DNA of 64,000 nucleotides from Asticcacaulis sp. MM231. GTDB taxonomy: Bacteria > Pseudomonadota > Alphaproteobacteria > Caulobacterales > Caulobacteraceae. This document shows positions 17,891 to 54,670 of the stretch, piece after piece. Location: contig NZ_OZ075108.1 of the NCBI RefSeq assembly GCF_964186625.1, forward strand, positions 1,178,001 to 1,242,000, given 5' to 3'. Position 1 is the stretch's first letter; each line of letters starts with the position of its first letter. The notes under the pieces are model-generated. The model saw only the letters and a program-made list of their open reading frames with translations, was not told the DNA's origin and searched no databases. The translations under genes and the position numbers were made by a program.

Positions 17891-17983
17891 CGGGCGGCGT
17901 TTTCCAATCGGTATTGACAAGAACGGCGTTCGCACCGCACCTTAAAAATATGGTAAATAGTCTCGTCTCGGGGGGCAAGGGTC

Positions 17984-18493: not shown

Positions 18494-19029
18494 CGAGCCC
18501 GCCGCCGCTGTTGCGGCTGGCCTTGCGGCGTTTGAGCAAAAAAAGTTTAAATAATCCCCTTCCGCTTCGGGTGCTTCATGCTTTCGGGGCTAACCCTGAA
18601 AGCGAAGGTGAGCCGTGAGCGAAACGACCCCCAGACTATCCTTGCCGCTGATCGGCGATCACACCCAGAAGCGCATCGTCATGAACGCCGTGCTGATGAA
18701 GCTGGAAGCGCTGGTGCAGGCGCAAGTGATGAGCCGCACCACAGCCGCTCAACCCGCAAGTCCGCTTGATGGCGACAGCTATATCCTGCCGACCAGCCCG
18801 ACGTGCGCCTTCTGGAGCCTTTTCACGGCCGGCAGTTTTCTGCGCGCGGAGGGTGGCACCTGGGAAGTGGTGATCTTTCCGGAGGGTGCCATCGTCCATA
18901 TCCGCGACGAGCACATCTTCCTGATCCGTACCGCTACAGGCTGGGCGCCGTTTGAGGACGTTCTGCGGCAATTGTCGAACCTGACGGGTCTTGGCGTCGG
19001 CACCGCGCCGGACGTGTTTGGACGCCCCC

Positions 19030-27727: not shown

Positions 27728-27803
27728 GCCTGGATAGCTCAGTTGGTAGAGCAGCGGATTGAAAATCCGCGTGTCGCTGGTTCGAATCCGGCTCCAGGCA
27801 CCA
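27728..27803 (+). tRNA. tRNA-Phe (anticodon GAA)
   Basis: A complete 76-nt cloverleaf with CCA encoded: acceptor GCCTGGA / TCCAGGC, anticodon loop TTGAAAA, T-loop TTCGAAT. Its 3' end (from 27784) forms the left attachment site of the downstream element, and the tRNA stays intact after integration. Confidence 0.97.
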
Positions 27804-27807
27804 TTCC
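27784..27807 (+). repeat. attL direct repeat in tRNA-Phe 3' end
   Basis: Twenty-four bases starting GAATCCGGCTCCAGGCACCA, identical to 50236-50259. It spans the T-arm end, acceptor stem, CCA and 4 bases beyond. Homology with the right side continues imperfectly downstream into the integrase gene. Confidence 0.92.
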
Positions 27808-27964
27808 CCCTTCCCAAGACATCCCCCAAAATCTAGCAAACCCTTATAAAATATGGTATTGTGGGGCTTAACAGTCCTGTGGCGTCCCACGAGATCCCAG
27901 AAGATCCGACGGTTTTTGGGTACAATTTGTGGGTAGCGCCGAGGACGCCTTGGACGCTACCCAC

Positions 27965-29179
27965 ATGTCTCTCTCCGATCTAACAATCAAAGCAGCTAAG
28001 CCCAATTCAGACAAGGATTACAAACTTGCCGATGGGGGCGCCTTGTTCCTGATAATTTCTAAATCAGGGAGCAAACTGTGGCGGTTTCGCTACCGGTTTA
28101 TGGGTAAAGAAAAAATGCTCAGTCTGGGCAGCTATCCAGACGTCGGTCTGAAGGCTGCAAGGGAGCGCCGCGACGAGGCTAAAAAGGTCCTTGCGACGGG
28201 CGTCGATCCGAGCTTCGAACGCAAGCGGCAATCGATCGCAGCCTCAATCCTAGCGAACAGTACGTTCATGGGTGTCGCCAAAGAATATATCGAAAAACTC
28301 GAAGCTGATGGTATCGCCGAGGCGACCAGAAAGAAAACGAATTGGTTGGCTTCGCTGTTGGAGAAAGACCTCGGGAGCCGTCCGATTGCACAAATTGAAC
28401 CCTATGAAGTGGTCTCGGCCCTGAAGAAAATTGAAAAACGAGGCAATTACGAGAGCGCAAAACGTGCGCGATCTTTCGCAAGTCGCGTTTTCAAATTTGC
28501 CATATGGACGGCACGCGCCAAGGTTGACCCTGCGGCGGACGTCGGCGGTGCGCTAAAATCGCCTAAGGTCGTTCATCGCGCCGCTATCCTCACGCCAGAA
28601 GGACTGGGAGGGCTTTTGAGGGACATCGAAGGTTTTGAGGGGCACATGACGACCCATGCAGCTCTTCGCTTGTCTCCGCATGTCTTTGTGCGCCCTGGTG
28701 AACTCAGACATGCAGAATGGCCCGAATTTGATTTTGACAAGTGCTGCTGGCGGATACCGGCGTCGAAGATGAAGATGGGAATAGAGCACGTTGTCCCGCT
28801 TTCACGACAGTCTACGGCGATTTTGCTGGCGATCCGTGAAATCACGGGCGAGGAAAAATATGTATTCCCGTCAATTCGGACGGGCGATCGCCCCATGTCC
28901 GAAAATACAATAAACGTTGCACTACGCCGTCTTGGTTACACATCGGACGAAATGACCGGCCACGGCTTCAGAAGCACAGCCAGCACCTTGTTGAATGAAT
29001 CGGGGAAGTGGCAGCCCGATGCGATTGAAGCCGCGTTGGCGCATCAGGACAAAAACAAGGTGCGAAGCAGTTACAACCGGGGCCAATATTGGGCTGAGCG
29101 AGTGGCTATGGCGCAATGGTGGTCAGATTATTTAGACAGTTTGCGCGAGGGAAACTCAACTAAAAGGCGGATCGCTTAA
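27965..29179 (+). CDS. tyrosine-type site-specific integrase
   Basis: About 404 residues. An N-terminal arm-type DNA-binding domain (DUF4102: MSLSDLTIKAAKPNSDKDYK, WRFRYRFMGKEKMLSLGSYP) is followed by a SAM-like core-binding domain and the catalytic domain with RPGELRHAEW (first Arg), HGFRSTAST (His and second Arg), AALAHQDKNKVRSSYNR (His and Tyr). It belongs to the P4/CP4-57-like integrases that use tRNA ends. ATG 27965 fits the family start; the frame is open upstream to 27929. It directly follows attL, as usual. Confidence 0.93.
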   Translation: MSLSDLTIKAAKPNSDKDYKLADGGALFLIISKSGSKLWRFRYRFMGKEKMLSLGSYPDVGLKAARERRDEAKKVLATGVDPSFERKRQSIAASILANSTFMGVAKEYIEKLEADGIAEATRKKTNWLASLLEKDLGSRPIAQIEPYEVVSALKKIEKRGNYESAKRARSFASRVFKFAIWTARAKVDPAADVGGALKSPKVVHRAAILTPEGLGGLLRDIEGFEGHMTTHAALRLSPHVFVRPGELRHAEWPEFDFDKCCWRIPASKMKMGIEHVVPLSRQSTAILLAIREITGEEKYVFPSIRTGDRPMSENTINVALRRLGYTSDEMTGHGFRSTASTLLNESGKWQPDAIEAALAHQDKNKVRSSYNRGQYWAERVAMAQWWSDYLDSLREGNSTKRRIA

Positions 29180-29310: not shown

Positions 29311-31173
29311 TCACTTCACGATCGAGTTCAGAGCTTTGTCGTTTTTGCCGAACCATACCTCCATTACAGGAACACCCTTTAGTGCGCCCTTGTAGCCCTT
29401 TATAAGAGTTGCATTGACCGGATGGAGCAAAAGGCCTTCCAGTTCCGTTGACACTTGCCGGGCGCTTGTGGCTTGTGCGGCGTTGAAGTAACGCACGACC
29501 GTCTCATCAGGTGAATTTGCTACCACCTGAATACCGCTGATGACCTTAATCCCTGAAAGTGTTTCGCTGATTTTATCACCAATTTGTGCTGCCGCTATTG
29601 TCTGGTCTTTAACTGCGACTTGGATATAGACTGTGGTCAGAGTGTCTGAGGCCTTGTAACCTTCGCACACGACGATGCTGACATATTCTTTCGTTTGCTT
29701 TGTGGTGATATGACGTCTCAAAGTCGTGTTGACGTCCGACATAACCATTGTTGCCCATTCTTTTTCCGCCGGATTATTGGAATCAACAAAGATTCCGGTG
29801 TCGCTCCGGCGATAGCCTGGTTTGGCATTGACTGCGGCTGGCAGGGAGCGAACACGGACAAGACCAAGTCTATATCCAGATAAGCTGAACGGTGATCGTG
29901 CCCGTTCAACGAGGCCCTGGCCAATCTTTAAGGCCTCATCTTTCCGGGCCGCGGACCTTGGATCGCCGTCACACCAGAAGACGTCAAAGTTCATCGGCCG
30001 CAAACTGATGTCGTTCGGTTCAGTATGGGGCGGTGCCGTTTTATTCACTGGTTGAATTGATGCCGGGGCTGTTTGAAAGTTCAACTTGATCAGGCGCACT
30101 GACCCATCAACTGGTTTTGAGGAGGGATTGCTTACATACATGAGTTTAGGATGAGCGCGTGTAGCCCGCGCCAATGGCGGTGCGCCCGTCGAGCCGAAGC
30201 CTAAAATGATCGTCTCGGCGACATTCTGATCCCATTCTGCGCGAGCACTGGGACACCCCTGAATACAGTAGGTTGGCGGATCAATTATTTGATTAACCCA
30301 ATCTGGATCTTGATGGTACCCTGTTCGCCGCAATACGTTCGATTTTACTTTCGTACCGAACACGATCAAGTTGTTGGTGTCTACCGGTTTGGAGATGGCG
30401 AGCGAATTTCGAATTTGATCCAGGGTAGCGATCAATTCAGCTGTAAAAGGTGACAACTCTTTCCCCACCCCTGTTCGTGAAGGCGTGCCGTCCTGAGTGG
30501 AAAATAGGTAGCTCACCCCTGCATCCTTCTGGACCTTTGTCGGGTAACTCACCTTTATCCCTACTCTGTGAAGCTCTTCCTCGATCGGATTGTCTCGACA
30601 CGCGTCGAGCAGAATGATGACAGATTTTGAGTATGGGCTCTCCAGGTGAGCAAACGGCTCGGCGATATCGACGCTGTTTCGAACGTACTGATGCGTATCC
30701 GGGTCGGTCGTATCAAACCTGATCCGCTTTGTCGCCACGGCTTCGGCAGCTAGCTTGACGGCGTCGATATCGGTATTCGCGCCGAAAATATAATTTTTAT
30801 TGCCGGCCTGGATGCCATGGCCGGTGTAGTAAATCAGAGCGAAAGCGCGCGGTGTCAAATTAACCTTGTCCTTAAACTTCTGGATGGCTTCGTAGATCTG
30901 ATCATTCGTGGCATCGCAAGGTAGTTCAAACACGTCTGTCCAATAGTTCGCTCTTAAGGCTTCCGCTACAGCGTGAGCCTCGCTGCAGGAGTTCTCCAGC
31001 CTTGGGAGGCTTCCCAACTCCGTGTATTTTGGGCCAACTCCGATAATGAGTGCGAACCGGTTTGGCTCCAGCAACTCAGACGCGCCGGCGTCTGGTTCCG
31101 GGTCGGCGCTGGCGCTGTCAGTAAGCATAAAGGCGATGGCGAAAAGAGCACAAAGGCATGCGCGAAAAGTCAT
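29311..31173 (-). CDS. secreted caspase-family (peptidase C14) protein
   Basis: The 620-residue protein has a signal peptide (residues 1-23) and a metacaspase-like domain (about 38-290): FALIIGVGPKYTELGSLP, the catalytic His119 in IYYTGHGIQAG and Cys192 in ILLDACRDNP. The rest (about 330-620) is unlike anything I recognise and contains the pair WCDGDPRS and VSIVVCEGYK. Exported caspase-like proteases are known in alphaproteobacteria, but inside a mobile element a self-killing or defence role is possible. It is divergent from a lysozyme gene 113 bp away, so they may share control. Confidence 0.85.
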   Translation of the reverse strand: MTFRACLCALFAIAFMLTDSASADPEPDAGASELLEPNRFALIIGVGPKYTELGSLPRLENSCSEAHAVAEALRANYWTDVFELPCDATNDQIYEAIQKFKDKVNLTPRAFALIYYTGHGIQAGNKNYIFGANTDIDAVKLAAEAVATKRIRFDTTDPDTHQYVRNSVDIAEPFAHLESPYSKSVIILLDACRDNPIEEELHRVGIKVSYPTKVQKDAGVSYLFSTQDGTPSRTGVGKELSPFTAELIATLDQIRNSLAISKPVDTNNLIVFGTKVKSNVLRRTGYHQDPDWVNQIIDPPTYCIQGCPSARAEWDQNVAETIILGFGSTGAPPLARATRAHPKLMYVSNPSSKPVDGSVRLIKLNFQTAPASIQPVNKTAPPHTEPNDISLRPMNFDVFWCDGDPRSAARKDEALKIGQGLVERARSPFSLSGYRLGLVRVRSLPAAVNAKPGYRRSDTGIFVDSNNPAEKEWATMVMSDVNTTLRRHITTKQTKEYVSIVVCEGYKASDTLTTVYIQVAVKDQTIAAAQIGDKISETLSGIKVISGIQVVANSPDETVVRYFNAAQATSARQVSTELEGLLLHPVNATLIKGYKGALKGVPVMEVWFGKNDKALNSIVK

Positions 31174-36301: not shown

Positions 36302-39226
36302 CTACATGCCAATGCTGATGCCGCGTGAAGGCGCAAACCCGATGCTGGCGCCAAGCTCACTCGACAGGCTCCGCTCCATGTCCCATCCGGAGCCGCTACG
36401 ACTGAGGCCCAGGGCCGATCGGCGGTTGCGCAGGTGCGACTCCATCTGTGGATCGCGCTCTATGGTCTTGGCCATGGCGCCCATCTGATCGCGCAGGCGG
36501 TTGGCCGTAGCGGTGTCGCCCGACCGTTCCGCACCGACCCGTTGCGCATCCGTCCGCGTCCAGTCATCGACGAAGCGATCCGCGCGTTTCACCGGATCTG
36601 CCCTAATCTCCGCTTCCAACCGCAGGGTTTGGATGGATCGATTTGTGCGTCCGCTTGCGGCCTCGCTGGCCATGGAGGGATCAGCGCTATAGACCCGCTC
36701 TAAGTCGTGGACGGCGTGCTTGTCGAAGGCGCTCAATCCCTCACGGGCCTTCTTAAGGGCCGTGGTCTGGTGTGGCAGAACTGGCAGGTCTTTGTCGTGC
36801 ATACGGAAGATATCGCGCACCGCCCCGGCATGGCGCTGGATGGCGCTGCGGCGCAAAGCATCGCGGTCTTCCCGGTAATCGGTCGGCTTTGGTTGCGGTG
36901 TGTTGGATCGTTGCCCTAGGTCCAGGCCATCAAACATGCCGCGCACCTTCTCCGGCACCTGGCGGATGATCTCGACCACACGTTCGCGCAAAGTTATGCC
37001 GCGTCGTTCAGCGAAGGCCTTGGCCCCGTCGTGGTCCAGTGCCATATCTTTCGAGCGCTCAAGCGACAGGGTACGGCTAAGCCGGTTCAGATCGTCGAAG
37101 TCGTCGCGGCCATAGTGCAGGTCGACACTGTAACGATGGCGGGAGAGGGCGACATAACTCGAATGGCTATCAAGCCCCGGTGTCGCCAGGACATGCACAC
37201 GGTCGATGGTCACGCCCTGGGACTTGTGGATGGTGACGGCGTAGCCGTGGTCGATGGCGTTGTAGTCCTTCAGATCAAACGCTACCGACCGGCCATCGTC
37301 GAGGCGCACAGACATTCGGTTTACATCAACAACTTCCGCCGTCCCCAAGGTGCCGTTCTTGACGCCACCATGCTCATCAAGCCCGCGTTCGTTCTTGAGG
37401 AACAGAACTCGGTCTCCGGCTGCAAAGGTGCGATCGCCGCGCTCGACCTTCATCTCTACATCATCGCCTAATTCACCTCTGGCTTTCAGCCGATCACGCG
37501 CCAGGGCGTTCAAGACCTGCACCTCGTCATTGGTGTGCGTGAGGATCAGCCGTGAGGCTTCGGGGTTATCAATCCGATCCTTGTCCCAGCGCTCGACCAG
37601 CTCCTGCCTGGCATCCTCGCGCGTTTCCGCCTCATGGACATGGCCGTGATCATAATAGGCATGCAGAGCTTGCGTCGTCCGGCCCGTGGCGAGATGGCGG
37701 GTGGCGTCGCGCTGCCAGTCTTCGTGCTGACGGCGCACCTGCGTGATCTCAACACCGCCGTGGCGCTCATGGATCGCGCGGAAAGCGGCGCCGGCTTCAA
37801 TCGCTTGCAGCTGTTCCGGATCACCGACCAGCACGACCTTAGCACCGGCCTCGGCGGCGGCCGACAGCACGCGTTCCATCTGGCGGCTGCCGACCATGCC
37901 GGCTTCGTCGACCACCAGGACATCGCGCGACGTCAGTAGCTCACGGCCCTTGCCCCATTGATGCTCCAGGCTGGCGATGGTGCGGGATGGAATGCCGGAA
38001 CCTGCCTCAAGGTTCTCGGCGGCAATGCCGGACAAGGCGGCCCCTCTGACCGTGTAGCCGGCGTCCTCCCACGCCTCTCTTGCTATGCCCAACATGGCGC
38101 TCTTGCCGGTGCCGGCATAGCCGACAACGACACTAAGACCGTCGGCCTTTGTGACATGCGCCAATGCGGCATTCTGTTCACCTGATAGGGTGAACCCGCG
38201 CGCCTCGGCCCGCCCCAGCACCATGTCGCGGCTGGCTGTTGAGACGCGATGGTGCTCGCGCGCCTTCATCAGGTCCGCCGCCCGTTGCAGACGCTGTTCG
38301 GTCTCGATCATGTCGCGGCTGGTGAAGCGCTCATCGCCACGCCCGTCGTTGCCCAATTCCACCAGATCAGGTGATTGCCGTACGGCGGTCATGACAGCGT
38401 TGAACTGATCGGCGCCGTCGGAATGACGGTGCACGAACATGGCCAGGTCACGCTTGGTGAAGGTCGCCTGAGTGTGGGTGATGGCGTCCAAGGCAATCTT
38501 CGGGTTGCCGAGTATCCTCTCGCCATTGCGGTAAGCGATATCGGCATGGTCCTCGATGCGCTCGGCCTCAAGCCCTTGGCTTTCCATGCGGCGTGCCGCT
38601 GCGCCGATCTTGCTTTGCGGCTCCAGGTCGATGCCTTGCTCTTCGAGTGTACGGTGATCGATACGGGCGTCGATATCGAGCTCGGCAAGACGCTGATTGA
38701 CATGCTCGGCCCAGGTCTCACGCCAGTGCTCGACCAGCTCAACGCGGTTCCAGTCACGCACCTTGGGTCCAAAGCCGTCTTCGCTGACCTCGCGCATGGT
38801 CAGCATGACGTGGGCGTGCGGTTTGGCCTGGCCATCTGCGCCGATGTCCCAATGCACATTGAGGTCGGCGATCATGCCCTGTTCGACAAACTCACGCTCG
38901 ACAAAGTCGCGGGCCAGGTCGATGCCTTGTGACTGGTTCATCTCACGCGGAATGGCAAACTCGACCTCACGGGAGAGCTGGGCATCCTTGCGTTTCTCGA
39001 AGGCTTCGACGTCATTCCACAACCGCTCACGGTCCGACCATTCCGGCGGCGCGTTGTCGGGGAGCATGACCTCGGAATGAACGACGCCGGTCTTGTTGGT
39101 GAAGTCCTGGGCGCGATCCAGCCGCTCGTCAAACAATCGGCCCGCCGATCGATAGGCGGCGGCCGCCACGGCGCTGGATCCGGCCGCTCGGGAAATCACT
39201 TTGACGGAGAGATGATATATCGCCAT
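36302..39226 (-). CDS. traA: Ti-type conjugative relaxase TraA (MOBQ relaxase plus helicase)
   Basis: The 974-residue protein nicks and unwinds the element for transfer. The N-terminal MobA/MobL relaxase (about 1-220) has candidate Tyr25 (AAAAYRSAGRLFDER) and the metal motif HAHVMLTMRE. A TraI-like SF1 helicase follows, with Walker A GYAGTGKSA at about 368-376 and Walker B VLVVDEAGM near 435, and the late motif GYAVTIHKSQGVTIDRVHV. The C-terminal third is charged and helical. Reading frame is intact. The matching oriT lies just upstream, divergent from it. Confidence 0.95.
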   Translation of the reverse strand: MAIYHLSVKVISRAAGSSAVAAAAYRSAGRLFDERLDRAQDFTNKTGVVHSEVMLPDNAPPEWSDRERLWNDVEAFEKRKDAQLSREVEFAIPREMNQSQGIDLARDFVEREFVEQGMIADLNVHWDIGADGQAKPHAHVMLTMREVSEDGFGPKVRDWNRVELVEHWRETWAEHVNQRLAELDIDARIDHRTLEEQGIDLEPQSKIGAAARRMESQGLEAERIEDHADIAYRNGERILGNPKIALDAITHTQATFTKRDLAMFVHRHSDGADQFNAVMTAVRQSPDLVELGNDGRGDERFTSRDMIETEQRLQRAADLMKAREHHRVSTASRDMVLGRAEARGFTLSGEQNAALAHVTKADGLSVVVGYAGTGKSAMLGIAREAWEDAGYTVRGAALSGIAAENLEAGSGIPSRTIASLEHQWGKGRELLTSRDVLVVDEAGMVGSRQMERVLSAAAEAGAKVVLVGDPEQLQAIEAGAAFRAIHERHGGVEITQVRRQHEDWQRDATRHLATGRTTQALHAYYDHGHVHEAETREDARQELVERWDKDRIDNPEASRLILTHTNDEVQVLNALARDRLKARGELGDDVEMKVERGDRTFAAGDRVLFLKNERGLDEHGGVKNGTLGTAEVVDVNRMSVRLDDGRSVAFDLKDYNAIDHGYAVTIHKSQGVTIDRVHVLATPGLDSHSSYVALSRHRYSVDLHYGRDDFDDLNRLSRTLSLERSKDMALDHDGAKAFAERRGITLRERVVEIIRQVPEKVRGMFDGLDLGQRSNTPQPKPTDYREDRDALRRSAIQRHAGAVRDIFRMHDKDLPVLPHQTTALKKAREGLSAFDKHAVHDLERVYSADPSMASEAASGRTNRSIQTLRLEAEIRADPVKRADRFVDDWTRTDAQRVGAERSGDTATANRLRDQMGAMAKTIERDPQMESHLRNRRSALGLSRSGSGWDMERSLSSELGASIGFAPSRGISIGM

Positions 39227-40189: not shown

Positions 40190-40449
40190 AATGAATGACA
40201 AGATAGATGGTGATGTCATTGTGCCAGGGCGTCACGGTGACGCGGCGTCAGAATGGATACAGGTGCCTCTAATTGCGGTTAGCCCTTGGACGAAGAAACT
40301 TGTGACACGGTGTGCGCTTGCGCCCTGACGGTTGGGTGTCTATTCGGTGGCGTCGGCTAGCGTTATGCGTCCGCACCACAGGAATGGAATACCACTGCAT
40401 TGATCCATTAGGCGAAGTGGTGCACAAAGAATCCAACACAGAGACAGCC

Positions 40450-41391
40450 ATGAACACCGACAAACTCGATCACCTGCCGGATACCAAACGACGCGAACTC
40501 GAACGCGTGGTGAAGATCCTGTTCGACGAGTTTGAGGATGCGACCAAGACGGCGCTGTCCGCAAAGCGCAAGGCCGGGCGCATCCTCAAGGTCATTCTGT
40601 TCGGTTCCTATGCCCGTGGCGACTGGGTCGAAGATCGCCTCAGCGGCTACCGGTCTGATTACGACCTGTTGGTGGTGGTCAATGGCCAGGACTTCACCGA
40701 CCTGCATACCTACTGGGACAAGGCTGATCAGCACTTCATCCAGGAACTGACCGTCACCCAGCATATCAAGACGCCGGTGAACTTTATAGTCCACAGCCTC
40801 GATGACGTGAATGATCAGTTGGCCAGAGGCCGACCGTTTTTCTCGGATATCGCCCGCGATGGCATCCTGCTTTACGACGCGCCGGGACATCTGTTAGCCA
40901 AGCCTAAGCCACTGACGCCGACGGAAATAAAAGTAGAGGCAAAGGCATACTATGACCAGTGGATACATAAAGCGGGGTACAATTTCCAGCTAGCCAATTA
41001 CAGCTTAGCCGACGATGAATTGAAGCATGCTGCCTTTCTTCTTCACCAAACGGTAGAGGCACTTTACCACTGCCTGCTTCTCACAATGACTTTGTATAGT
41101 CCCAAGAGCCACCGCATCTCTGTCCTTCGCTCTCAAGCGGAAAATCTCGACGACCATCTGAGAGGCATATGGCCGTCCGAAAGCCGCCTCCATCGCCAGG
41201 CGTTCGATCGACTGCGCAGGGCTTACGTTGAGGCCAGGTATTCTTCCGACTACCAGGTCACCGATGAAGAGTTGAACTGGCTGGTGGAGCGTGTGTCGAT
41301 GCTTCAGGAAGCGGTCAAAGTTGCCTGTAAGCGACATTTTGCCGGGCTGGACACTCAGCCTTCACAGCTAAACTCAAGCCATTTGAAGTAA
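40450..41391 (+). CDS. nucleotidyltransferase-HEPN fusion protein
   Basis: A 313-residue protein from ATG 40450. Residues about 45-140 are a polymerase-beta-type nucleotidyltransferase (LFGSYARGDW with Gly52-Ser53, then SDYDLLVVV with Asp70 and Asp72). Residues about 180-300 are HEPN-like (FLLHQTVEALYHCLLLTMTL; RRAYVEARYSSDY near the end). In MNT-HEPN toxin-antitoxin pairs these are two proteins, the NTase AMPylating the HEPN RNase; fused versions also exist. I do not see a clear R-x4-6-H RNase motif, so it may be a regulatory or enzymatic NTase. Confidence 0.8.
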   Translation: MNTDKLDHLPDTKRRELERVVKILFDEFEDATKTALSAKRKAGRILKVILFGSYARGDWVEDRLSGYRSDYDLLVVVNGQDFTDLHTYWDKADQHFIQELTVTQHIKTPVNFIVHSLDDVNDQLARGRPFFSDIARDGILLYDAPGHLLAKPKPLTPTEIKVEAKAYYDQWIHKAGYNFQLANYSLADDELKHAAFLLHQTVEALYHCLLLTMTLYSPKSHRISVLRSQAENLDDHLRGIWPSESRLHRQAFDRLRRAYVEARYSSDYQVTDEELNWLVERVSMLQEAVKVACKRHFAGLDTQPSQLNSSHLK

Positions 41392-42065: not shown

Positions 42066-43769
42066 ATGCGCGGATTTGGAGTAATTTTAACTGCCTGTGT
42101 TGTCTCATCATTGGCCGGGTGCGCAACCTATGACAGTGGTAAGATTGATTATCGTAAGAGTGAGTTCATGCAGCATCAGGCTGCACTCAACTTTAGAGCA
42201 TCGCATATGGACGAGTGCTGGAAAGAAGAGCCGCTTGCGGAAAATGTCTCCGACGATCCCAATTGCTCTTTCATGCTTCCCTCGCGCTTGACTGATAAGA
42301 ACTTTTCCCTCGGCCAACCGCCTGTGAAACCAGGAGATGTCTACTCCATTAGACTAGATCATGGTCTTATTGCGCAATTTTCCGAAAGCCGGAGCTTTAA
42401 GCGACTAGGCGCTCCAAAAAACGGGGAAATTGTAATTCTTGTGAACGCTTTCGAATTCGCGGACACGGCCGCCAACGTTGCAGATGTCCACTTTATCGAT
42501 GTCTTGAAAGATGACCGGGAGGGGGCTCCTTCGCTGGCTAAGGCGCGGGTCGTCTATTACAGTTCCGATGTCGAAGAGGGGCAGGACCTGAATTTTAGCA
42601 ATATACCCATTAGCGGGCCGGTCAAATATAACGGCCGGCCAGTCGGCATTCAGATCATCGTGCTGGAGTTGGACAGGGTCAGTGCGTCCACAAAGTCCTT
42701 GCTAAAAAGCTTGGCGGAACTGGGAAAGGCCAACGTGGCCCCTTCAGTAGTCAATGATACGCTTGTCACACTGGGAACCAGCTTGCTCGATGGAAATCGC
42801 GACGACGTGCTGTTCGAATACAGGATGTTGCTGGATAACGCAGACGACCTAAAGGATCAAATCACACCAACCTTTACAGAAGGCCGGTACGTTTACAGAC
42901 GCGTCCAGCATCGTGAGAGGCCCATGATCTGGAATAACCTGCGGTTAGATCAAAATACCGGGGCTCTTTTCTATTGGGCGGACGGCAAGAGCTACAAGGG
43001 GCAAGTGCCGCAACAAGGAAGGGAGCTAGTTAAGAATGAAGCCGTAAATCCAGGCATGATCCGGGTGCCATATACGCTCGAATCGTACTTTACCGTGAAT
43101 GTCATCAATCATGGTCAGAACGGTATTGTTGGCGAATATGCCTACGAAACTTGGGCGCAGACTTCGGAAAAAATCGATGCGGCTCTGGAAGATCCGACGC
43201 TTCCCCCAGCCCAACTAAATCAAGTCATCAAGACAGCTACTACGACCCGTGTCTCTGTCAACACGATGAACACTCTGAATGCACTCAGTGACTCGGTTGT
43301 GCAAAAATGGTCAGCGTTCGCCATGATACCAAATGGGACGCCCGGCACGACTGACTATCTGCAGTTTGCCGACTACAAAGCTCAAGGCACGACTGAAGAG
43401 GCTCGCGCGCTTTGTAAGGTCGGATGGCAATCGATGCTAGCGACCATTGCCAAGGCGGATGTCGTTGATCAGCAGGCAAAGTTCGCGACGGTTGGTCTAG
43501 CCAAGGCTTGGAAAGCCGGAGTAACGATGGCTGGCGGGAAGATCGCGTTGCAGCCGGCCGAGCACGGGGTGCTACTGACCCAGTTGGTCGAAAAGGTGCA
43601 GCACCGCTTTGGAGTGTTCTCGGACCCGGCTTACGCAGCCTTTGCGGACAAGGATCTCTTTACGAGCTCATACCTCGCCGATGACGCCAATGCATTAGGG
43701 GCTGTTTTGGAAACGATGGCTGACAAACGCAGGCCCGATGTGCCAACGACTTGCGCCGGTCTTTACTAA
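42066..43769 (+). CDS. large lipoprotein of unknown function
   Basis: A 567-residue protein with a lipoprotein signal (VVSSLAGC, lipid-modified Cys19). It has no domain I know. There is a mixed alpha/beta N-terminal half and a helical C-terminal half (about 390-550). It lies alone after AlpA and about 350 bp before the sensor kinase. Lower G+C than the flanks suggests acquisition. It could be a surface or envelope partner of one of the island systems; this is speculation. Confidence 0.7.
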   Translation: MRGFGVILTACVVSSLAGCATYDSGKIDYRKSEFMQHQAALNFRASHMDECWKEEPLAENVSDDPNCSFMLPSRLTDKNFSLGQPPVKPGDVYSIRLDHGLIAQFSESRSFKRLGAPKNGEIVILVNAFEFADTAANVADVHFIDVLKDDREGAPSLAKARVVYYSSDVEEGQDLNFSNIPISGPVKYNGRPVGIQIIVLELDRVSASTKSLLKSLAELGKANVAPSVVNDTLVTLGTSLLDGNRDDVLFEYRMLLDNADDLKDQITPTFTEGRYVYRRVQHRERPMIWNNLRLDQNTGALFYWADGKSYKGQVPQQGRELVKNEAVNPGMIRVPYTLESYFTVNVINHGQNGIVGEYAYETWAQTSEKIDAALEDPTLPPAQLNQVIKTATTTRVSVNTMNTLNALSDSVVQKWSAFAMIPNGTPGTTDYLQFADYKAQGTTEEARALCKVGWQSMLATIAKADVVDQQAKFATVGLAKAWKAGVTMAGGKIALQPAEHGVLLTQLVEKVQHRFGVFSDPAYAAFADKDLFTSSYLADDANALGAVLETMADKRRPDVPTTCAGLY

Positions 43770-44123: not shown

Positions 44124-46481
44124 ATGGCGGTAGCGGTGGCATTACCTGAAAAAAAATCGTTCCGGGTTAGCACCGGTCTAAAAGACTTGATCGGACGCGA
44201 CCTGATCACCGATGATTTTGTCGCCGTTTTCGAATTGGTCAAAAACGCATTCGACGCGCACGCCACATCCGTCAGGCTTACTTTTGAGGAAGACAGGATT
44301 ATAATTGGCGACAATGGCAAGGGCATGTCCGATAATGACATCCTCAATAAATGGTTGGTTGTAGCGTACTCTGCAAAAAAAGAAGGCACTGAGGATGACG
44401 ACTATCGGGAGCACATCGGCGAACGGAGTCGTGCATATGCGGGCGCGAAGGGAGTGGGTCGGTTTTCTTGCGATCGTTTAGGCTCTAGCCTAGTTCTGAC
44501 GAGCAAAGCCTCCAGCGCAAGCGCCCAAGTGGTGGAAGTTGATTGGACACTTTTTGAAGTCAACCCGAAGGAAGAGTTCACAAATATACATGTAGAGACA
44601 TCGTCTCTGGCACGTCTACCAGCGACAAAACAGAGCTTGGACGGGGAGACCGGGACCGTTCTGGAGATCAGAAATCTCCGAAGCGAATGGAACAGGCCGA
44701 AACTCCAGTCGTTAAAACGAGAGCTGACCAAACTTATCGATCCATTTTCCGGCGCATCGCGCACGTTTCTGATTGAAATTGTTGCGTTGGCAGAACTTGA
44801 GGCGGATGAAAGGGATGCTGAGTACAATAAGGAAAATGCTGGAAAAAAGCCTGAACGGCTTCTGGTCAACGGCATTATTGGCAATGCCATCATGGACGCC
44901 ATCGGCGAACGTACTACGGCGATACAAATTGCACTGTCAAATGACGGCAAAACTATTACGACCACCTTGGAGGACCGAGGTAAGCTAATATATAAGATCC
45001 GCGAAGAGAATCCCTACGCCGGATTGGCTGAGACTTGCATTCATGTTGATATCTATTACCTCAATAGAAGCGCGAAAGTAGTATTTGCAAACAGGATGGG
45101 CCTTCCGTCGGTTCAATTTGGATCGATATTTCTGTTTCGAAATGGTTTTCGAGTATTCCCTATTGGCGCACCTGACGACGACTTCTTCCTTCTTAATCAA
45201 CGAAAGCAACAGGGCGTTCGTCGTTTCTTGGGCGGCCGAGACTTAATTGGGCGCGTCGAGATCAAGGGCGTGTCAGGTTTTGACGAAGCGACGAGTAGAA
45301 ATCAGGGCTTAATAGAAACCCCACAGGTCCGAGAATTAATAGAATTTATAAAGGAAAAGTGCGTCAAAAGATTAGAACGATATGTCGTCGATATCAGTTG
45401 GATGGATAAATTTGACCAAGAGGTGGACGACACATCTCGGATAATGATGGATGAAAATAGCGCGAAAGTTACAAAGCTAATTTCGCGTCTTGCCGCGACC
45501 AGCGGCGTTGAGTTGGTTGAATATAATCCTGAGATCGTTCGAATCATCGAAGACATCTCTGATGAGTTTGAGGGCTCATTGAAGGCGCTTGAACTTCTAG
45601 CCGAAGAAACAGGCAATTCCACGCTGTTATCACAAGTGGATGCGGCAAAAGCTAGAATTTACGCTCTGCGAATTGCTGAGGCGGAAGCACGTGAAGCGCA
45701 GCGTCGCGCCGAAGAACGAGCCGTTCTGGCAGAAGCGTCCAGAGCTGCCGCTGTTGAGCAACTTACGGACGAAAGAAAGCGCAACGATTTTCTGGTCGCC
45801 GCTTCGTCCCTGGACGAAGACACGATCCTGAACCTACACCATCAAATTATCATTCATGCGGCCGACGTGCAAAACGGTGTCGAGCGTATGATGGTTCGCC
45901 TGCGCGCTGATGGAGAAATCGCAAAGGAAGATTGGGTCGACTTTTTGGAAAGTACGTCATACCGAAACAGTCAGATCCTTACAGCCGCCCGCTTCGCAAC
46001 CAAAGGCGGATACCGAGAGCAGTCCACGCTAATCGAGGCAGATCTTGCTTTGTACATTTCTGATTACATTGAAACAATATCGACGCTTTGGGCACCTCAA
46101 GGCATGAGTGTTCATGTGGCCTCTGACGCCCGAGAATTCACAAAGAAATTTAAGCCAATCGAGGTTGGAATTGTTCTCGACAATTTCATTTCAAATTCGA
46201 AGAAAGCGAACGCGTCTAACGTTGGATTCGAGATTTCTGTCTCAAAGGGGGCCAAGGCCGAACTAATGGTTGCCGTCGCCGATGATGGCTTAGGGTGGCC
46301 TAATATTAGACCTCTAGAGCGATTGTTCGAGAAGGGCGTGACTAGTACAGACGGATCAGGGCTGGGCCTTCACCACATTCGTCGAGTGATCGGCAGTCTA
46401 AAGGGGGTCGTTGAACTCCACGAAGAAGCTTATTCGGCTGAGCTAGATGGTGCTAATATACTTGTAAGGATAGCTCAATGA
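44124..46481 (+). CDS. sensor histidine kinase with two GHKL ATPase domains
   Basis: A 785-residue soluble protein with no signal peptide or membrane helix. The N-terminal GHKL domain resembles the MutL/MORC/Hsp90 group: ELVKNAFDA (Glu37, Asn41), DNGKGM (63-68), GAKGVGRFS (107-115). About residues 500-560 are coiled coil (REAQRRAEERAVLAEAS). A DHp-like helix follows with His572-His573 in LNLHHQIIIHAADV as phosphoacceptor candidates. A second, histidine-kinase-type ATPase then has DNFISNSKKA (686-695), ADDGLGW (719-725) and GSGLGLHHI. Paired with the downstream REC gene by a 4-bp overlap. The ligand is unknown. Confidence 0.88.
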   Translation: MAVAVALPEKKSFRVSTGLKDLIGRDLITDDFVAVFELVKNAFDAHATSVRLTFEEDRIIIGDNGKGMSDNDILNKWLVVAYSAKKEGTEDDDYREHIGERSRAYAGAKGVGRFSCDRLGSSLVLTSKASSASAQVVEVDWTLFEVNPKEEFTNIHVETSSLARLPATKQSLDGETGTVLEIRNLRSEWNRPKLQSLKRELTKLIDPFSGASRTFLIEIVALAELEADERDAEYNKENAGKKPERLLVNGIIGNAIMDAIGERTTAIQIALSNDGKTITTTLEDRGKLIYKIREENPYAGLAETCIHVDIYYLNRSAKVVFANRMGLPSVQFGSIFLFRNGFRVFPIGAPDDDFFLLNQRKQQGVRRFLGGRDLIGRVEIKGVSGFDEATSRNQGLIETPQVRELIEFIKEKCVKRLERYVVDISWMDKFDQEVDDTSRIMMDENSAKVTKLISRLAATSGVELVEYNPEIVRIIEDISDEFEGSLKALELLAEETGNSTLLSQVDAAKARIYALRIAEAEAREAQRRAEERAVLAEASRAAAVEQLTDERKRNDFLVAASSLDEDTILNLHHQIIIHAADVQNGVERMMVRLRADGEIAKEDWVDFLESTSYRNSQILTAARFATKGGYREQSTLIEADLALYISDYIETISTLWAPQGMSVHVASDAREFTKKFKPIEVGIVLDNFISNSKKANASNVGFEISVSKGAKAELMVAVADDGLGWPNIRPLERLFEKGVTSTDGSGLGLHHIRRVIGSLKGVVELHEEAYSAELDGANILVRIAQ

Positions 46482-47440
46482 GGCTAAATTTCAACCTATT
46501 AGTAGTAGATGACGATCCCACTACAATAAATCAGTCAATTATATCTCTTAAGGATCATCTTGCCGGAAAAGGTTTCGTTTTGAATACACAGATCGCAAAT
46601 GACCTGTCACCCTCCGGGCTACGGAAGCTTGCACGGCAAGAAGGACGCAATTTCGATCTTGTGGCTATCGACTATCACCTAAGTCGAGATGACACGAACG
46701 GCGCGAAACAAGCGGCCGCTATGCGGACGCTATTGGGCTTTACAGACATTCTGTTCTATTCATCCAAACCCAATGTAAATCTTTACGACGAACTCGCGCG
46801 TGAAAAAGTCACTAGCGTTTTTATCGGCGAGCGGAATGATCTTGGGCGTTCTCTACGGGGACTAGCTGACACCGTGATTGGTAAGGTTGTCGATGTAAGT
46901 CACATGCGCGGTATTGCAATGGCCGAAGTTGCTGACATGGACGTTATGATGGAGGACATTTTGCTTAAAGTCTTCTCGTCTGGGGATGCAAAGATGGCAA
47001 GCAAGGCCACGCGCACTATGAACAAGTTGATTGCGGGAGCAGAAGAATCTCTGGCTGAATTGAAGAAAATCGTTGAGTCTGGTCTCATACTAGATTTGGT
47101 TTCAAATCCCGCCTATTTCACATCGATGCAGAGATATAAGGGAATCCAGCGTGTACTCGGTTGCTTGGAAAATGTGCCCCTCGCCGCCTCCCCGCTGGCA
47201 GATTTTGTCGACGACGTAATTCATAATAGGAACGCCTTAGCCCATGCAAAAGGTTCAGAGGCACCTGATGGCTCCATCAGTTTACGGTCAATACGGCGCG
47301 GACATGCAGACGTAGTGATAACCGAGCAGTGGATGACGGATTTTAGAACAAAATTGCTAAAACAGAAGCTTGCACTAACGGAGGCTTGTCTCGCTCTTCA
47401 CGCCTATGTTGAAGGGGTTGCGACCCAGCAAGCGAAATAA
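46478..47440 (+). CDS. response regulator fused to a putative HEPN RNase-like domain
   Basis: A 320-residue protein. Residues 1-135 are REC-like: acidic pocket DDD at 11-13, phosphoacceptor Asp65 in LVAIDYHL, and Ser95/Lys97 in FYSSKPN. No DNA-binding domain follows; instead residues about 150-315 are all-helical and hold HNRNALAHAKG, where Arg251-Asn252-x3-His256 fits the HEPN RNase motif R-x4-6-H. The start overlaps the kinase stop (ATGA). I infer that phosphorylation by the kinase switches the HEPN part. The REC call is solid; the RNase call rests on one motif and helical context. Confidence 0.8.
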   Translation: MRLNFNLLVVDDDPTTINQSIISLKDHLAGKGFVLNTQIANDLSPSGLRKLARQEGRNFDLVAIDYHLSRDDTNGAKQAAAMRTLLGFTDILFYSSKPNVNLYDELAREKVTSVFIGERNDLGRSLRGLADTVIGKVVDVSHMRGIAMAEVADMDVMMEDILLKVFSSGDAKMASKATRTMNKLIAGAEESLAELKKIVESGLILDLVSNPAYFTSMQRYKGIQRVLGCLENVPLAASPLADFVDDVIHNRNALAHAKGSEAPDGSISLRSIRRGHADVVITEQWMTDFRTKLLKQKLALTEACLALHAYVEGVATQQAK

Positions 47441-48679
47441 GCCAAGACCAAGTTGCTCGGCCAAGAGCGGGGGTATTGCATTTGCGACCTGAGTGAAGCG
47501 CGGCACTTCACGAGCCCTCATGTGACCTCCGGTCGTATATTTTCCTTTGAATTCAAACCAATCAGGAAAAGATTGAAGACGTGCATTTTCTCGTACCGTC
47601 AACGTCCGGGGTTCGGAATAGTGCAAAAGGTCATCCGGCATGCTGGTAATGGTTGGCGCCGGAGCAAGAGGGTCCAGAACCCTGATCGCAATTTTCTTCA
47701 AATTGTGCGCCGTCCGTATTATCGAGCTTGCAGATAATTTGATCGTGCCGTCATCACGGCAAGCTTTGATTATCGCCTTAAATCGCGCTGCAATCTCCGG
47801 ACGGTGACGAGCAAGTCGCATATCGGAAGGAGCGACCCGAAGGCCATCCCGCATTGCTTGCTGATATGGCGTCCGAGGAGCCTTGTAATCTGATGCTCGG
47901 AACCCTTTGCACTCTGGGCAGGCGATCGTCCCGTTGTACGTCAATTCGAGATCACTAAGCGCGTCCTTCGCAGACGGTGTACGTGAAAGGCCTCTGCTGG
48001 CGAGGAAGCCGCCTGCTTCCTTTTCAAGCTTTTGAAAGAAAACATCGAGGTTGCCCCCCAAATCACATTCCTTTCGTACTCCGATCAGGAAAAATCTCAT
48101 TCGATTTTGGGGAACACCGTATTCGCTAGCTCGGATAATCGAGAAAACCGTATTGTAGTCAGTGCTAAGAGCATCAATCAGTGCCTGGGCAAAGTTCTTG
48201 ATGTTCCCTTCCTTGATATTGTTGAAGTCGGAGGTGAAGCCCAGAACGTTTTCAATAAGAACGATCTTCGGCTTAATGATTCCAACCAAGTCCAAATAGG
48301 CTTCAAAAAGACGATTGCGGGGATCTTCAGGGCGGCGACGCCCGGCATGTGAAAAGCCTTGGCAGGGCGGACCGCCAGCCAATAGGTCTACTCTTTGGGA
48401 CAGCTCATCTAAAGCGTCCTTTTTTTGGGTGAGCAGCTCGTTTATATCCCACGGTTTCCGTTCAATACTCTCAGGCCAATCATATGAGCGCCAGCCAGCA
48501 TTGTCTGGAAAATTGCTGGACATTGTTTGGAACGCAAAGGCATCCTTCTCGATCGCAAATAGGCCTCGCCATCCCGCTCGCTTTAGCCCAAGGCTAAGGC
48601 CGCCACATCCAGCAAAGATGTCGACAAATGTGGGCGCATCACATGCAATATTTCCAGGTCGGTCTAAATTGTCGAACAT
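47375..48679 (-). CDS. DNA (cytosine-5) methyltransferase
   Basis: A 434-residue m5C methyltransferase: DIFAGCGGLSLGLKRAGW (motif I), GGPPCQGFSHAGRR (motif IV, catalytic Cys), LIENVLGF (motif VI), YGVPQNRMRFFLIGV (motif VIII) and VANAIPP (motif X). All order and spacing are normal; the target-recognition domain (about 240-350) carries CPECKGF. It is convergent with the response-regulator gene and overlaps its 3' end by 66 bp, so both C-termini share DNA. No restriction endonuclease is recognisable beside it. Confidence 0.93.
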   Translation of the reverse strand: MFDNLDRPGNIACDAPTFVDIFAGCGGLSLGLKRAGWRGLFAIEKDAFAFQTMSSNFPDNAGWRSYDWPESIERKPWDINELLTQKKDALDELSQRVDLLAGGPPCQGFSHAGRRRPEDPRNRLFEAYLDLVGIIKPKIVLIENVLGFTSDFNNIKEGNIKNFAQALIDALSTDYNTVFSIIRASEYGVPQNRMRFFLIGVRKECDLGGNLDVFFQKLEKEAGGFLASRGLSRTPSAKDALSDLELTYNGTIACPECKGFRASDYKAPRTPYQQAMRDGLRVAPSDMRLARHRPEIAARFKAIIKACRDDGTIKLSASSIIRTAHNLKKIAIRVLDPLAPAPTITSMPDDLLHYSEPRTLTVRENARLQSFPDWFEFKGKYTTGGHMRAREVPRFTQVANAIPPLLAEQLGLGLFRLLGRNPFNIGVKSETSLR

Positions 48680-50235: not shown

Positions 50236-50259
50236 GAATCCGGCTCCAGGCACCATTCC
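50236..50259 (+). repeat. attR direct repeat
   Basis: Identical over 24 bases to attL at 27784-27807, including the tRNA-Phe 3' end and CCA. The rest of the tRNA is not repeated. Beyond it, about 200 bases stay similar to the sequence after attL. Confidence 0.92.
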
Positions 50260-50387
50260 TCCCTCCCAAGACATCAGCCAAAATCTAGCAAACCACTTAT
50301 AGTGGCGTCCCATGAGATACCAGAATATCCGCCGGTTTTTGGGTACAATTTGTGGGTAATGCCGAGGACGCCTTGGACGCTAACCAC

Positions 50388-50548
50388 ATGTCTCTCTTTG
50401 ACCAAACAATCAAAGCAGCTAAGCCCAATTCAGACAAGGATTACAAACTTGCCGATGGGGCGGTGCGATGAGGTTAAAAAGGTCTTTGCAAGGGCGTCGA
50501 TCTGAGTTTCAAGCGACAAGCGATAGCGGCCTCAAACCTTTACGTCCG
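50388..50548 (+). pseudogene. 5' remnant of a second tRNA-Phe integrase
   Basis: Starting at ATG 50388 the DNA matches the first codons of the intact integrase at 27965 (SLxDxTIKAAKPNSDKDYKL), up to GCCGATGGGG near 50460. About 120 bases are then missing, and GCGATGAGGTTAAAAAGGT onwards matches the intact gene near 28170-28260. Frame and reading are lost. The 50260-50387 leader also matches the leader of the intact gene, with one 30-odd-base gap. Confidence 0.85.
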
Positions 50549-52401: not shown

Positions 52402-54670
52402 TCAGGCCTTGAGTAGTGTCAGTTTTGCCGGCACGCCGGTGGCCGAGGATGGAGCAATCCAGATATCGAACATACCGGGTTCAGCTTCCCATTTTAGCTC
52501 AGGCCCGACAAAGGCGAGATCGCTGCGGGAAAGGTCGAAACTGACGGTGCGGGTTTCGCCGGGTTTCAGATCGAGGTGGCGAATGCCCTTCAGAGAACGC
52601 ACCGGCTGAGTGATCGAGGCCACGCGGTCATGGATATAGAGTTGCGCAACCTCATGCACCGGACGCGCGCCGGTATTGCTCACCTCGGCCGATACCGTCA
52701 CCTTGCCAGACCACGGCAGCGCGTCAGCGCTCAATTGCGTGGCGCTATAACTGACCTTGCCATAGCCCAATCCGTGGCCGAAGGGATAGAGCGGTTCAAA
52801 CGGCGCATCGCGCCAGCGGGCACGGTAGCCGGCATCGTCACCGATCTGCGGGCGCCCGGTGGTGCGGTGATTATAATAGAACGGCTCCTGTCCCGATTTC
52901 AGCGGGAAACTGCATGGCAAGCGGCCCGACGGGCTGTAATCGCCAAACAGAATATCGGCGATGCCGTTTCCAGCCTCTGACCCAAGGAACCAGGTGCAGA
53001 GGATGGCGTCGGCGTCTCTTATGGCGCCTTCCAGGGCAAGGGCACGGCCATGACTTAGCAAGACCACCATTGGCTTGCCCGTTGCCTTTATAGCCTCGGC
53101 GAGCGCAACTTGGGCCCCGGGCACGGTGATCTCGGTGCGTGATTGCGCCTCGCCCGACATCTCCTGCCCTTCGCCGATGCAGAGCACCACCACATCGGCC
53201 GCCCGGGCCGCCTTTATCGCTGCGTCGATGCCGCCGGCGATCGGTGAGTTCGATATCCGAGCCGCGTACCACGGTCAGATGGTTACCGATCACGCCCCGC
53301 ATGGCCATCTCGACCGTGACGCTGTCTTTCGTATCCGAAAAGACCACCCAATAACCGTTGAGCTGGTTCTGATCCGAAGCCAGTGGCCCGATCAAGGCTA
53401 CCTTCTGGCCAGACTTTTTCAACGGCAACACATCGCCCTCATTTTTCAGCAGTACGCAGGCGCGCCGCGCTGCCTCGCGCGCCAGGGCAATGGTTTCGGG
53501 CCGGCGCATAGCGTTATGTTCTCGCGCCGCATCCATTGACTTATAGGGATTATCAAACAGGCCTATGGCCTTCTTGATGTGCAATACCCGGCGCACAGCC
53601 TCATCCAGTACCTTGACGGGCACTTCGCCTGATCGCACCAGATCCGGCAAGTATTTCATGTAGATGCCCGATTGCATCGACATATCGCAGCCGGCCAGGA
53701 TCGCCTTCTTCGCGGCGTCACGACCATCGGTGGCGAAACCGTGGGCGATCAGTTCTTCTTCCGAGGTGAAATCGGAGACCACAAAACCCTTGAAGCCCAT
53801 CTCGCCGCGTAAGATTCCGCTCAGCAGCCTGCGATTGCCGGTGGATGGCACGCCGCCGATATCGTTGAATGCGCTCATCACCGTCAGCGCGCCGGCATCG
53901 ATACCGGCCCGGAAAGGTGGCAGGTGCGTCTGGCGCAGGGTGGGTTCGGTAATCTCGACCGTATTGTAATCCATGCCGGCTTCGACCGCGCCATAGGCGG
54001 CGAAGTGCTTCAGGCAGGCCAGCATCGAATCCTGAGCCTTCAGATCCGGCCCCTGAAAGCCCTGCACACGGGCGGCGGCAAAGCGGCAGGCCAGCCAGGT
54101 GTCTTCTCCCGCCGCCTCGGCCGCTCGCCCCCAACGCTGGTCGCGCACCACATCAACCGCCGGTGAAAAGGTCCAATGAATGGCCGAGGCCGTCGCCTCC
54201 ACCGCCGCTGCCCGATTGGTGCGACGTGACAACTCCGGATCAAAGCTGGCGGCCTCGGCCATCGGGATCGGGAAGATGGTTGTCATGCCGTGGATGATGT
54301 CAGCCGCGAAGATTAGCGGAATGCCATGCGGCGATTTTTCCACCGCCACCTTTTGCAACTCACGGCTTAAGCCCACGCCACGACCGTTGAACAGACCGGT
54401 GATTTTCCCGGCGGCAATATCGGCCAGCGCCTTGTCCTTTGACTCGCTGGCAATGGTTGGATTGAAAAAGGCAGCTTCGGTACGAACGGAGTCGCTGTAA
54501 AGGCTCAGTTGTCCGGCCTTGTCTTCCAGCGACATCCTGGCGATCAGGCTTTCGACAAAAGCATCCTTCGCAGCCGCGATCGCGGGGGCAAACGCTGAGG
54601 CTGCGCCGGCCATGGCTATCGTCGAGGCCACCCCCTTAATGTAGGCGCGTCGGGAAAGAGGCTGGGACAT
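52402..54670 (-). pseudogene. GH3 beta-glucosidase, frameshifted by one base
   Basis: The N-terminal frame (52871-54670) opens with a twin-arginine-like signal (LSRRAYIKG) and has VVSDFTSEEELI (nucleophile Asp), but runs into RRRHRRSDKGGPGG after RGSDIELT. The proper sequence (IAGGIDAAIKAARAADVVVL) continues in the next frame to 52402. Removing one base near 53242 restores a 755-residue protein, the length of the neighbouring paralogue, with the segment aligned without gaps. It is either a recent pseudogene or an assembly error. Confidence 0.88.

Follow-up and report, generated by a model that had tools for sequence, protein, structure and literature searches.

A 64,000-nucleotide stretch of the genome of Asticcacaulis sp. 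MM231 (hereafter the window) contains, at 44124-48679, a triad of genes specifying a histidine kinase with two GHKL ATPase domains, a receiver protein whose C-terminal half is likely a HEPN domain, and a 5-methylcytosine (m5C) DNA methyltransferase. Comparison with related loci supports the conclusion that the three genes form one conserved, co-inherited unit. The triad lies inside a mobilizable element of ~22.5 kb at a tRNA-Phe gene and may encode a phosphorelay that acts in defence.

The open-frame list bears out the arrangement described in an earlier reading made from the sequence alone (the sequence-only reading), in which the kinase gene overlaps the receiver-protein gene by 4 bp and the latter meets the methyltransferase gene in a 66-bp overlap (Table 1). 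That the convergent third gene specifies an m5C methyltransferase, as that reading had also proposed, is confirmed by its match to PF00145 (2.5e-51) and by the presence of the motifs GGPPCQ, IENV and QNRMR; M.HaeIII and M.HhaI are among its PDB matches. The G+C content of the triad is 0.48-0.51, compared with 0.57 for the window and 0.62 for the relaxase gene of the element.

The search for the kinase-receiver neighbourhood across bacteria that the sequence-only reading had called for was run. At E<=0.001 database searches gave 89 relatives of the receiver protein, counting the window's own copy, and 7536 of the kinase out of 7999 scored candidates. Each of the 15 non-redundant loci in which the receiver gene is complete (15 of 15) has all three genes; 13 of these loci were located by the receiver protein alone (L001-L009, L011, L012, L013 and L016) and two by the kinase (L072 and L073). 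The stored stretches hold only C-terminal parts of the kinase in L011-L013 and L016, and a 167-amino-acid kinase end in L073, where the contig ends. This count leaves out L010 (the locus of the window), L015 (the same sequence as L002), L017 (in which the kinase is present and the receiver frame stops after 153 amino acids, ~110 bases before the contig end), and the short, receiver-only matches L014 and L018-L027. The sequence-only reading would have been refuted by homologous pairs found mainly in non-mobile, housekeeping contexts without a methylase; none was among the loci seen, every one of the 15 having a methylase.

The methylase gene is convergent in 14 of the 15 loci and lies upstream in tandem in L072. 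Twelve of the 14 convergent loci have a 3'-3' overlap of 4-165 bp, with gaps in L016 (51 bp) and L073 (33 bp). In the most distant loci compared (L012, L013, L016 and L072) identity to the window falls to 32-34% for the kinase, 22-24% for the receiver and 42-44% for the methylase. The persistence of gene order and key residues over such large sequence distances indicates that the arrangement is not due to chance. Pairwise distances of the three proteins correlate with r of 0.92-0.95 (15 loci, counting the window but not L073; permutation p 0.0001, without correction for shared ancestry), and with r of 0.82-0.89 within the 11 closer loci. In one metagenomic protein, P0075, a kinase C-terminus and a receiver protein are joined in a single frame. 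Among the organisms named in the titles of L001-L009, several of which are metagenome bins, we recognize, partly from general knowledge, Alphaproteobacteria (e.g. Methylorubrum, with L001 being Methylorubrum rhodinum, and Phyllobacterium), Gammaproteobacteria, one acidobacterium and one member of the Bacteroidota.

Matches to PF13589 and PF02518 bear out the proposal that the kinase has two ATPase domains, and both sites look complete by eye and by alignment. The description of the kinase as soluble also fits, as its highest 19-residue Kyte-Doolittle mean is 1.18, too low for a membrane helix anywhere in the protein. PDB matches of the kinase family profile include HtpG, PMS1 and several histidine kinases. 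Residues 35-219 resemble the BbrUII/HgiDII restriction enzymes (NF050001, 79.1 bits); membership in that family was rejected, as the curated cut-off is 550 and the match covers the N-terminal part only. With its N-terminal GHKL domain, conserved motifs and restriction-modification neighbourhoods, the kinase agrees with the description of paraMORCs, whose definition also includes an S5 domain, in a comparison that covered these features. E37, H572 and H573 are invariant in 30/30 aligned close kinases, and H573 falls where each of the 20 kinases in a wider comparison also has an aligned His. The residue that follows the H-box His matters for autophosphorylation by ordinary histidine kinases. In 30/30 close kinases this residue is Gln (H573-Q574), in place of the acidic residue of the canonical two-component H-box. 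Across the wider comparison it is Gln in 5/5 kinases paired with a HEPN receiver, and also in L017, while among the 14 other kinases it is Glu in 13 and Thr in 1. In this sample, then, the type of kinase follows the type of output, a pattern that shared descent alone could also produce.

The N-terminal half of the window's receiver protein has no Pfam match of its own, the whole protein yielding none at E<=1; Response_reg was matched at this threshold by 61/88 members of its family. The family profile matched response regulators in the PDB (best 0.00083), and the predicted structure resembles receiver domains at about residues 2-137. Searches with the full model (Foldseek and VIA-align) listed matches that are receiver domains or cover that part. 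The acidic residues expected of a receiver are conserved in the family alignment (D65 in 85/85 rows, D11 in 83/84 and D12 in 82/84), which left out P0075, the fusion, and P0001, the window protein itself.

In the C-terminal half the motif R-N-x-L-A-H is kept in all 87 relatives with letters there, which led us to reject a chance motif, and in distant loci, whose domains share 20-25% identity with that of the window, it persists as R-N-x-L-[AG]-H. HEPN domains are characterized by a conserved R-x4-6-H with a polar residue after the Arg, placed at the end of helix 3 or where the loop to helix 4 begins, by an insert between helices 2 and 3, and, as described for Csx1, by a beta-hairpin; the superfamily has metal-independent RNase activity (PMC3710099, as far as its available text goes). 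The motif of the window protein has this form. In an AlphaFold2 model of the half (mean pLDDT 84.7, 14 sequences), two long helices are predicted to lead into a helical insert; the next helix has the motif at its end, and after it come a beta-hairpin and a final helix. The motif would then lie at the end of helix 3 with an insert before it and a hairpin after it, in the published HEPN order. The nearly invariant acidic residue D155 (D in 87 and E in 1 of 88) sits in the domain's first helix, whereas the second conserved acidic residue of HEPN, often within Ex3[KR], is described in helix 2 (PMC3710099, same text). Motif-centred HH comparisons, for which RiboL-PSP and Swt1 alignments were built in this analysis from loci and aligned on the motif, scored the domain at 21.0 against RiboL-PSP and 21.6 against Swt1, beside 23.2 for RiboL-PSP against Swt1; reversed decoys, one per pair, scored 12.3 and 9.5, and probabilities were low throughout. 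All residues singled out by the sequence-only reading proved to be conserved: Asp65 in 85/85 rows, R251/H256 in 87/87, and E37 and H572/573 in 30/30 kinases. Nor did the C-terminal half turn out, in the loci seen, to be a known non-HEPN output domain, the finding that reading had named as fatal to it.

The statement in the sequence-only reading that no described system has these three parts does not hold. The same general plan, built from other domain families and with no mention of HEPN, appears in an in-silico survey by Bellieny-Rabelo et al. 2021 (PMC8011034), which in its available text describes kinases with HATPase_c_3, HEF_HK and HATPase_c domains, adjacent Response_reg_2 proteins and C5 methylases. 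That text reports kinase/Response_reg_2 linkage of 91.6% in 644 regions, suggests descent from paraMORCs, and offers the speculation that kinase/receiver-like pairs control restriction-modification systems. The window triad is like these HEF_HK (PF19191)/Response_reg_2 (PF19192) pairs in its HATPase_c_3, DHp-like and HATPase_c kinase, its adjacent receiver-like protein, its C5 methylase and its restriction context. It is unlike them in that the C5 methylase, frequently upstream in those systems, is convergent here in 14/15 relatives, and in that their receiver-like proteins are described as having no other known domains, with 0 occurrences of HEPN in the available part of the paper (PMC8011034). 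Moreover, the H-box of the window kinase reads H-Q rather than the H-E of HEF_HK kinases, and neither the window kinase nor its receiver matches PF19191 or PF19192 at E<=1; the kinases of L001, L012, L016 and L017 likewise lack a PF19191 match at that threshold. As a positive control, HEF_HK was found in the kinases of L028, L030 and L031 (6.5e-29 and 4.7e-8, with 3.7e-4 in L030, below the cut-off). PF19192 was matched by 1/88 members of the window-receiver family (E 0.038), and L012 gave 0.0042 with 17.7 bits against a cut-off of 27. The true PF19192 proteins of L028, L030 and L031 have open frames of 527-649 amino acids, that of L029 being short (224 amino acids), and by eye carry a P-x-C-D motif. 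Membership of the triad in the HEF_HK/Response_reg_2 group was therefore rejected, the Pfam tests having failed while the positive control worked. Thus the general plan has been known since 2021, and what is new here is a triad outside PF19191 and PF19192, with another output domain and an H-Q H-box.

Other known systems share parts of this plan. Detocs couples two-component-style signalling to a receiver-linked effector, and to our knowledge no methylase is part of it. Unlike the window protein, the Detocs effector is a purine nucleoside phosphorylase, described in the available text as degrading (d)ATP (PMC10952713); no Detocs name is among the PADLOC or NCBIfam matches listed for the window, the presence of Detocs models in those libraries being unchecked. 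Prokaryotic MORCs and paraMORCs (Iyer et al. 2008, PMC2292703) have an N-terminal GHKL ATPase and restriction-modification neighbourhoods with mostly cytosine methylases, as here. They differ from the window ATPase, which is fused to a histidine-kinase core and stands beside a receiver protein, and the words 'receiver' and 'response regulator' are absent from the available part of that paper. ParaMORC-Ymh HEPN fusions, as described in the available text of PMC3710099, show the same sensor-effector pairing in restriction-modification loci, except that there the HEPN is fused to the ATPase and here it would be part of a separate, receiver-controlled protein. In GHKL-Shedu VcSduA of V. cholerae, shown to be anti-phage, a GHKL ATPase is likewise proposed to control a nuclease, but one of the PD-(D/E)xK type in the same chain, with no receiver in the architecture described in the text available (PMC12137116). 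HATPase and REC are among the labels of predicted, unvalidated systems in a figure legend of the DefensePredictor paper (PMC13092281, seen as an extract), and one of these may be a relative. Within the open-licence PMC literature we found no description of a HEPN-receiver phosphorelay.

Related kinases also adjoin receivers with other C-termini, the types of which were assigned by eye. Receivers containing P-x-C-D occur in L076-L079, in the Enterobacter plasmid L034 and, more loosely, in L075; a Cys/His-rich receiver is found in the archaeal plasmid L035, and a short receiver next to an HNH gene in the Deinococcus plasmid L033. The C-termini of the kinase-adjacent receivers in L074, L080 and L081 are of no assigned type, and no receiver frame was found downstream of the kinase in L082 and L083. 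The L034, L076 and L077 kinases gave no HEF_HK match, and the receivers of L076 and L077 none to Response_reg_2, so that the superfamily extends beyond both Pfam families. In a phylum sample the kinase had matches in 263/299 genomes, most of them, judging by the listed ranges, through ordinary histidine-kinase parts. The 12 best-scoring other genomes were taken for locus inspection, and an m5C methylase-like frame was present in nine of these loci (L072, L073, L075, L077-L079 and L081-L083). The occurrence of related kinases beside different receiver C-termini suggests a signalling family with swappable effectors.

Receiver-HEPN genes were found in 4/299 genomes of the family, counting that of the window (a fifth match, L014, is short and false), and complete ones in 3/385 genomes of the class, again counting that of the window, together with the shortened gene of L017; the other ten class matches are short and receiver-only. 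This distribution is patchy, as for a mobile gene, and with relatives so few and scattered a housekeeping role for the triad was rejected. The receiver protein had no match among plasmids, none among genome contigs in a single-sequence search, and none among viral contigs. The kinase matched 94 plasmid records, all at <60% identity and none covering 80% of the kinase, so that plasmids yielded no close copy of the triad. The flanks of L001-L009 comprise 80 frames, of which 20 were scanned with Pfam and 10 with PADLOC (8 of those 20 plus two more). In six of the nine loci (L001, L004, L005, L006, L007 and L008) the flanks add genes for restriction or defence, namely a second m5C methylase, an N6 methylase accompanied by a ResIII helicase, HsdM, nSTAND1 with a DndH-like protein and, in L007 and L008, N4/N6 methylases. 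The sequence-only reading had placed the triad itself in a mobilizable element, and the tRNA-Phe gene, an integrase, a relaxase, TraD and a 24-bp att repeat corroborate this; the TraD and AlpA genes also lie between the att repeats.

The mechanism that we regard as best, and to which we assign about an even chance, is that sensing of foreign DNA leads through a phosphorelay to release of an RNase, with methylation marking self. It is favoured by the presence of the triad in 15/15 loci, the distance correlations (r = 0.92-0.95), the invariant or nearly invariant key residues, the placement of the HEPN motif, the HH scores, the defence neighbours in 6/9 flanks, the tRNA-Phe element and the precedent of VcSduA. 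The triad would then be a mobile, probably anti-phage or anti-plasmid phosphorelay. The MutL/MORC-like N-terminal ATPase of the kinase, presumably a dimer, would sense foreign DNA or a DNA state caused by infection, and its ATP-driven closure would let the C-terminal kinase phosphorylate the H-box histidine H573. From there the phosphate would pass to Asp65 of the receiver protein, which would release or pair the C-terminal HEPN domains so that their R251/H256 sites could cleave RNA and arrest the infected cell's growth. The m5C methylase may mark resident DNA, keeping the sensor silent, or otherwise provide the self half of the system. We infer the sensed signal, the phosphotransfer, the RNA cleavage, the protection by the methylase and defence itself from the genes, motifs, co-occurrence and co-divergence observed.

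Several results weigh against this mechanism. A textbook relay is disfavoured by H-Q in place of H-E in the kinase and by the lack, in the family alignment consensus judged by eye, of a conserved Lys after receiver strand 5. With regard to the effector, Pfam HEPN matches are at noise level (HEPN_RiboL-PSP in 3/88 members, best 0.016; HEPN_Swt1 in 2/88, best 0.12), and in the same 88-member scan PreP_C, CDPS, AcetDehyd-dimer and a winged-helix family score better than HEPN. The L072 and L073 receiver proteins have no Pfam HEPN match. A fold search of the PDB with the C-terminal model gave nothing HEPN-like among the matches listed, a result with which HEPN is still compatible, and the C-terminal profile found designed repeat proteins as its best PDB sequences (E 0.18). 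Among the scanned flanking frames, L002, L003 and L009 (3/9) showed no restriction or defence gene. Finally, when 15 flanks were compared with eight genes of the window element only L036 matched, through an integrase-like frame (L036 is from the genome of L011 and has tRNA-Arg; L039 is the same contig as L002). Of the REC-HEPN protein proposed by the sequence-only reading, then, the motif stands, being invariant and in the right topological place, but significant HEPN profile or fold matches did not follow; we consider that the C-terminal half is best read as HEPN, likely though not proven.

If the C-terminal half were instead an output that binds protein or nucleic acid and has no RNase activity, the triad could be an unusual restriction-modification or regulatory system in which the kinase-receiver pair controls the adjacent methylase and neighbouring restriction-modification genes, at the level of either expression or activity. 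The absence of a significant HEPN match, a weak winged-helix match (F-93_WHD, 4/88 members, best 0.0079), the C5 methylase in 15/15 relatives, the different receiver C-termini beside other superfamily kinases, and the speculation on restriction-modification control in the available text of PMC8011034 all suit such a system. We nevertheless think it unlikely, as binding alone poorly explains why an RNase-type Arg and His are invariant in 87/87 relatives while the half diverges to ~20% identity.

Equally improbable in our judgement is a toxin-antitoxin-like addiction module, with the HEPN protein as a toxin checked by the kinase (perhaps a phosphatase) or the methylase, loss of the element harming the cell, and phage defence secondary or absent. 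The Gln that follows the H-box His might shift the balance from kinase to phosphatase activity, and the mobilizable tRNA-Phe element with its own relaxase would fit such a module. HEPN domains are also common toxins (PMC3710099, available text), but the size and elaboration of the system, with two ATPase domains, exceed those of ordinary toxin-antitoxin modules, and 6/9 scanned relatives adjoin restriction or defence genes. Least probable, and by a clear step, is a switch without phosphotransfer, in which kinase and receiver activate HEPN directly through ATPase or ligand; H-Q for H-E in the HEPN-paired kinases compared and the missing receiver Lys would agree with it, as would the receivers independent of histidine kinases that are proposed, in the text available, for other conflict systems (PMC8195603; Cam2, PMC11229360), but D65, D11 and D12, the His of the H-box, and the N and G boxes are retained, and the kinase gene is adjacent in all loci counted.

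Should the phosphorelay mechanism be true, the triad would join recognition of a DNA mark, a His-Asp phosphorelay and a HEPN RNase, usually separate, in one portable module. For the output halves of paraMORC-associated receivers, in which the 2021 survey recognized no known domain, it would supply a function open to testing, and it would offer a handle on what bacterial MORC-like ATPases sense; the triad may be an anti-phage alarm and belong to a family that only computer surveys have revealed so far. More tentatively, and at somewhat under even probability, a large unrecognised immune family could exist in which a MORC/MutL-like ATPase-histidine kinase drives interchangeable receiver effectors (here a HEPN RNase, and elsewhere a P-x-C-D domain, a domain rich in Cys and His, or a short receiver adjoining an HNH nuclease) with the methylase as self mark. 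Such a family would be a phosphorelay counterpart of CBASS that turns the sensing of DNA state into RNA destruction.

Table 1. Features of the triad and of the element that carries it (window positions).
Feature	Position	Strand	Basis
paraMORC-type double-GHKL histidine kinase, 785 aa (amino acids)	44124..46481	+	open frame, Pfam, alignment
N-terminal GHKL ATPase, residues 33-146, MutL/Hsp90/BbrUII-like	44220..44561	+	PF13589 3.3e-20; NF050001
His573, best candidate phospho-acceptor, then Gln	45840..45842	+	His aligned in 20/20 kinases
C-terminal histidine-kinase ATPase, residues 681-768	46164..46427	+	PF02518 2.4e-14; N, G1, G2 boxes
ATGA 4-bp overlap, kinase stop / receiver-protein start	46478..46481	+	open frames
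Receiver-HEPN protein (HEPN likely), 320 aa	46478..47440	+	open frame, family alignment, predicted structure
Asp65, predicted receiver phosphorylation site	46670..46672	+	85/85 rows with letter
C-terminal HEPN-like domain, residues 136-320	46883..47437	+	model, profile comparison
R251-N-A-L-A-H256, predicted RNase active site	47228..47245	+	R and H in 87/87 rows
66-bp 3'-3' overlap, receiver gene / methylase gene, convergent	47375..47440	.	open frames
m5C DNA methyltransferase, 434 aa	47375..48679	-	PF00145 2.5e-51
tRNA-Phe, integration site	27728..27803	+	tRNA scan
attL, repeat of tRNA 3' end	27784..27807	+	24-bp exact repeat
Tyrosine integrase	27929..29179	+	PF00589 8e-20, PF13356 8.8e-26
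Ti-type TraA / MobQ relaxase-helicase	36302..39226	-	protein-family match
attR, 24-bp exact copy of attL	50236..50259	+	repeat comparison

The chromosomal flank to the right of the element was matched in 7/24 other genomes of the genus, an eighth, G068, matching in the integrase-like part only; no tRNA was found in the seven flank-matching loci scanned, and an empty integration site was not shown. At 50236-50533 the right att repeat is followed by a decayed stretch that shares ~90% identity with the start of the integrase gene and the sequence immediately preceding it, perhaps the scar of a second, former tandem element.

Other genes of interest lie in the element and nearby. A nucleotidyltransferase-HEPN fusion at 40312-41391 (+; PF01909 1.4e-5, PF05168 2.2e-11) is a second HEPN protein near the triad, and a caspase-fold peptidase at 29311-31173 (-; PF00656 7.5e-14, EACC1-associated caspase model 1.4e-10) is possibly another conflict gene. 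Just upstream of the triad, 42066-43769 (+) encodes a 567-amino-acid protein with a hydrophobic start, lipoprotein-like by eye, whose best family match is not below 0.01. Beyond the element, at 52402-54670 (-), a gene that looks GH3-like by eye is split into two frames that overlap, as by a frameshift near 53190, through sequencing error or as a pseudogene. In L006, from Candidatus Phyllobacterium onerii, an 1818-amino-acid protein with a DndH-like C-terminal part (1.8e-66; 13342-18795, -) adjoins the triad, with an nSTAND1 protein on the other side. Right after the triad of L001 (12541-17635, +), the second m5C methylase is followed by proteins of 702 and 505 amino acids with no Pfam or PADLOC match at 1e-5, and these three genes could represent a further undescribed system.

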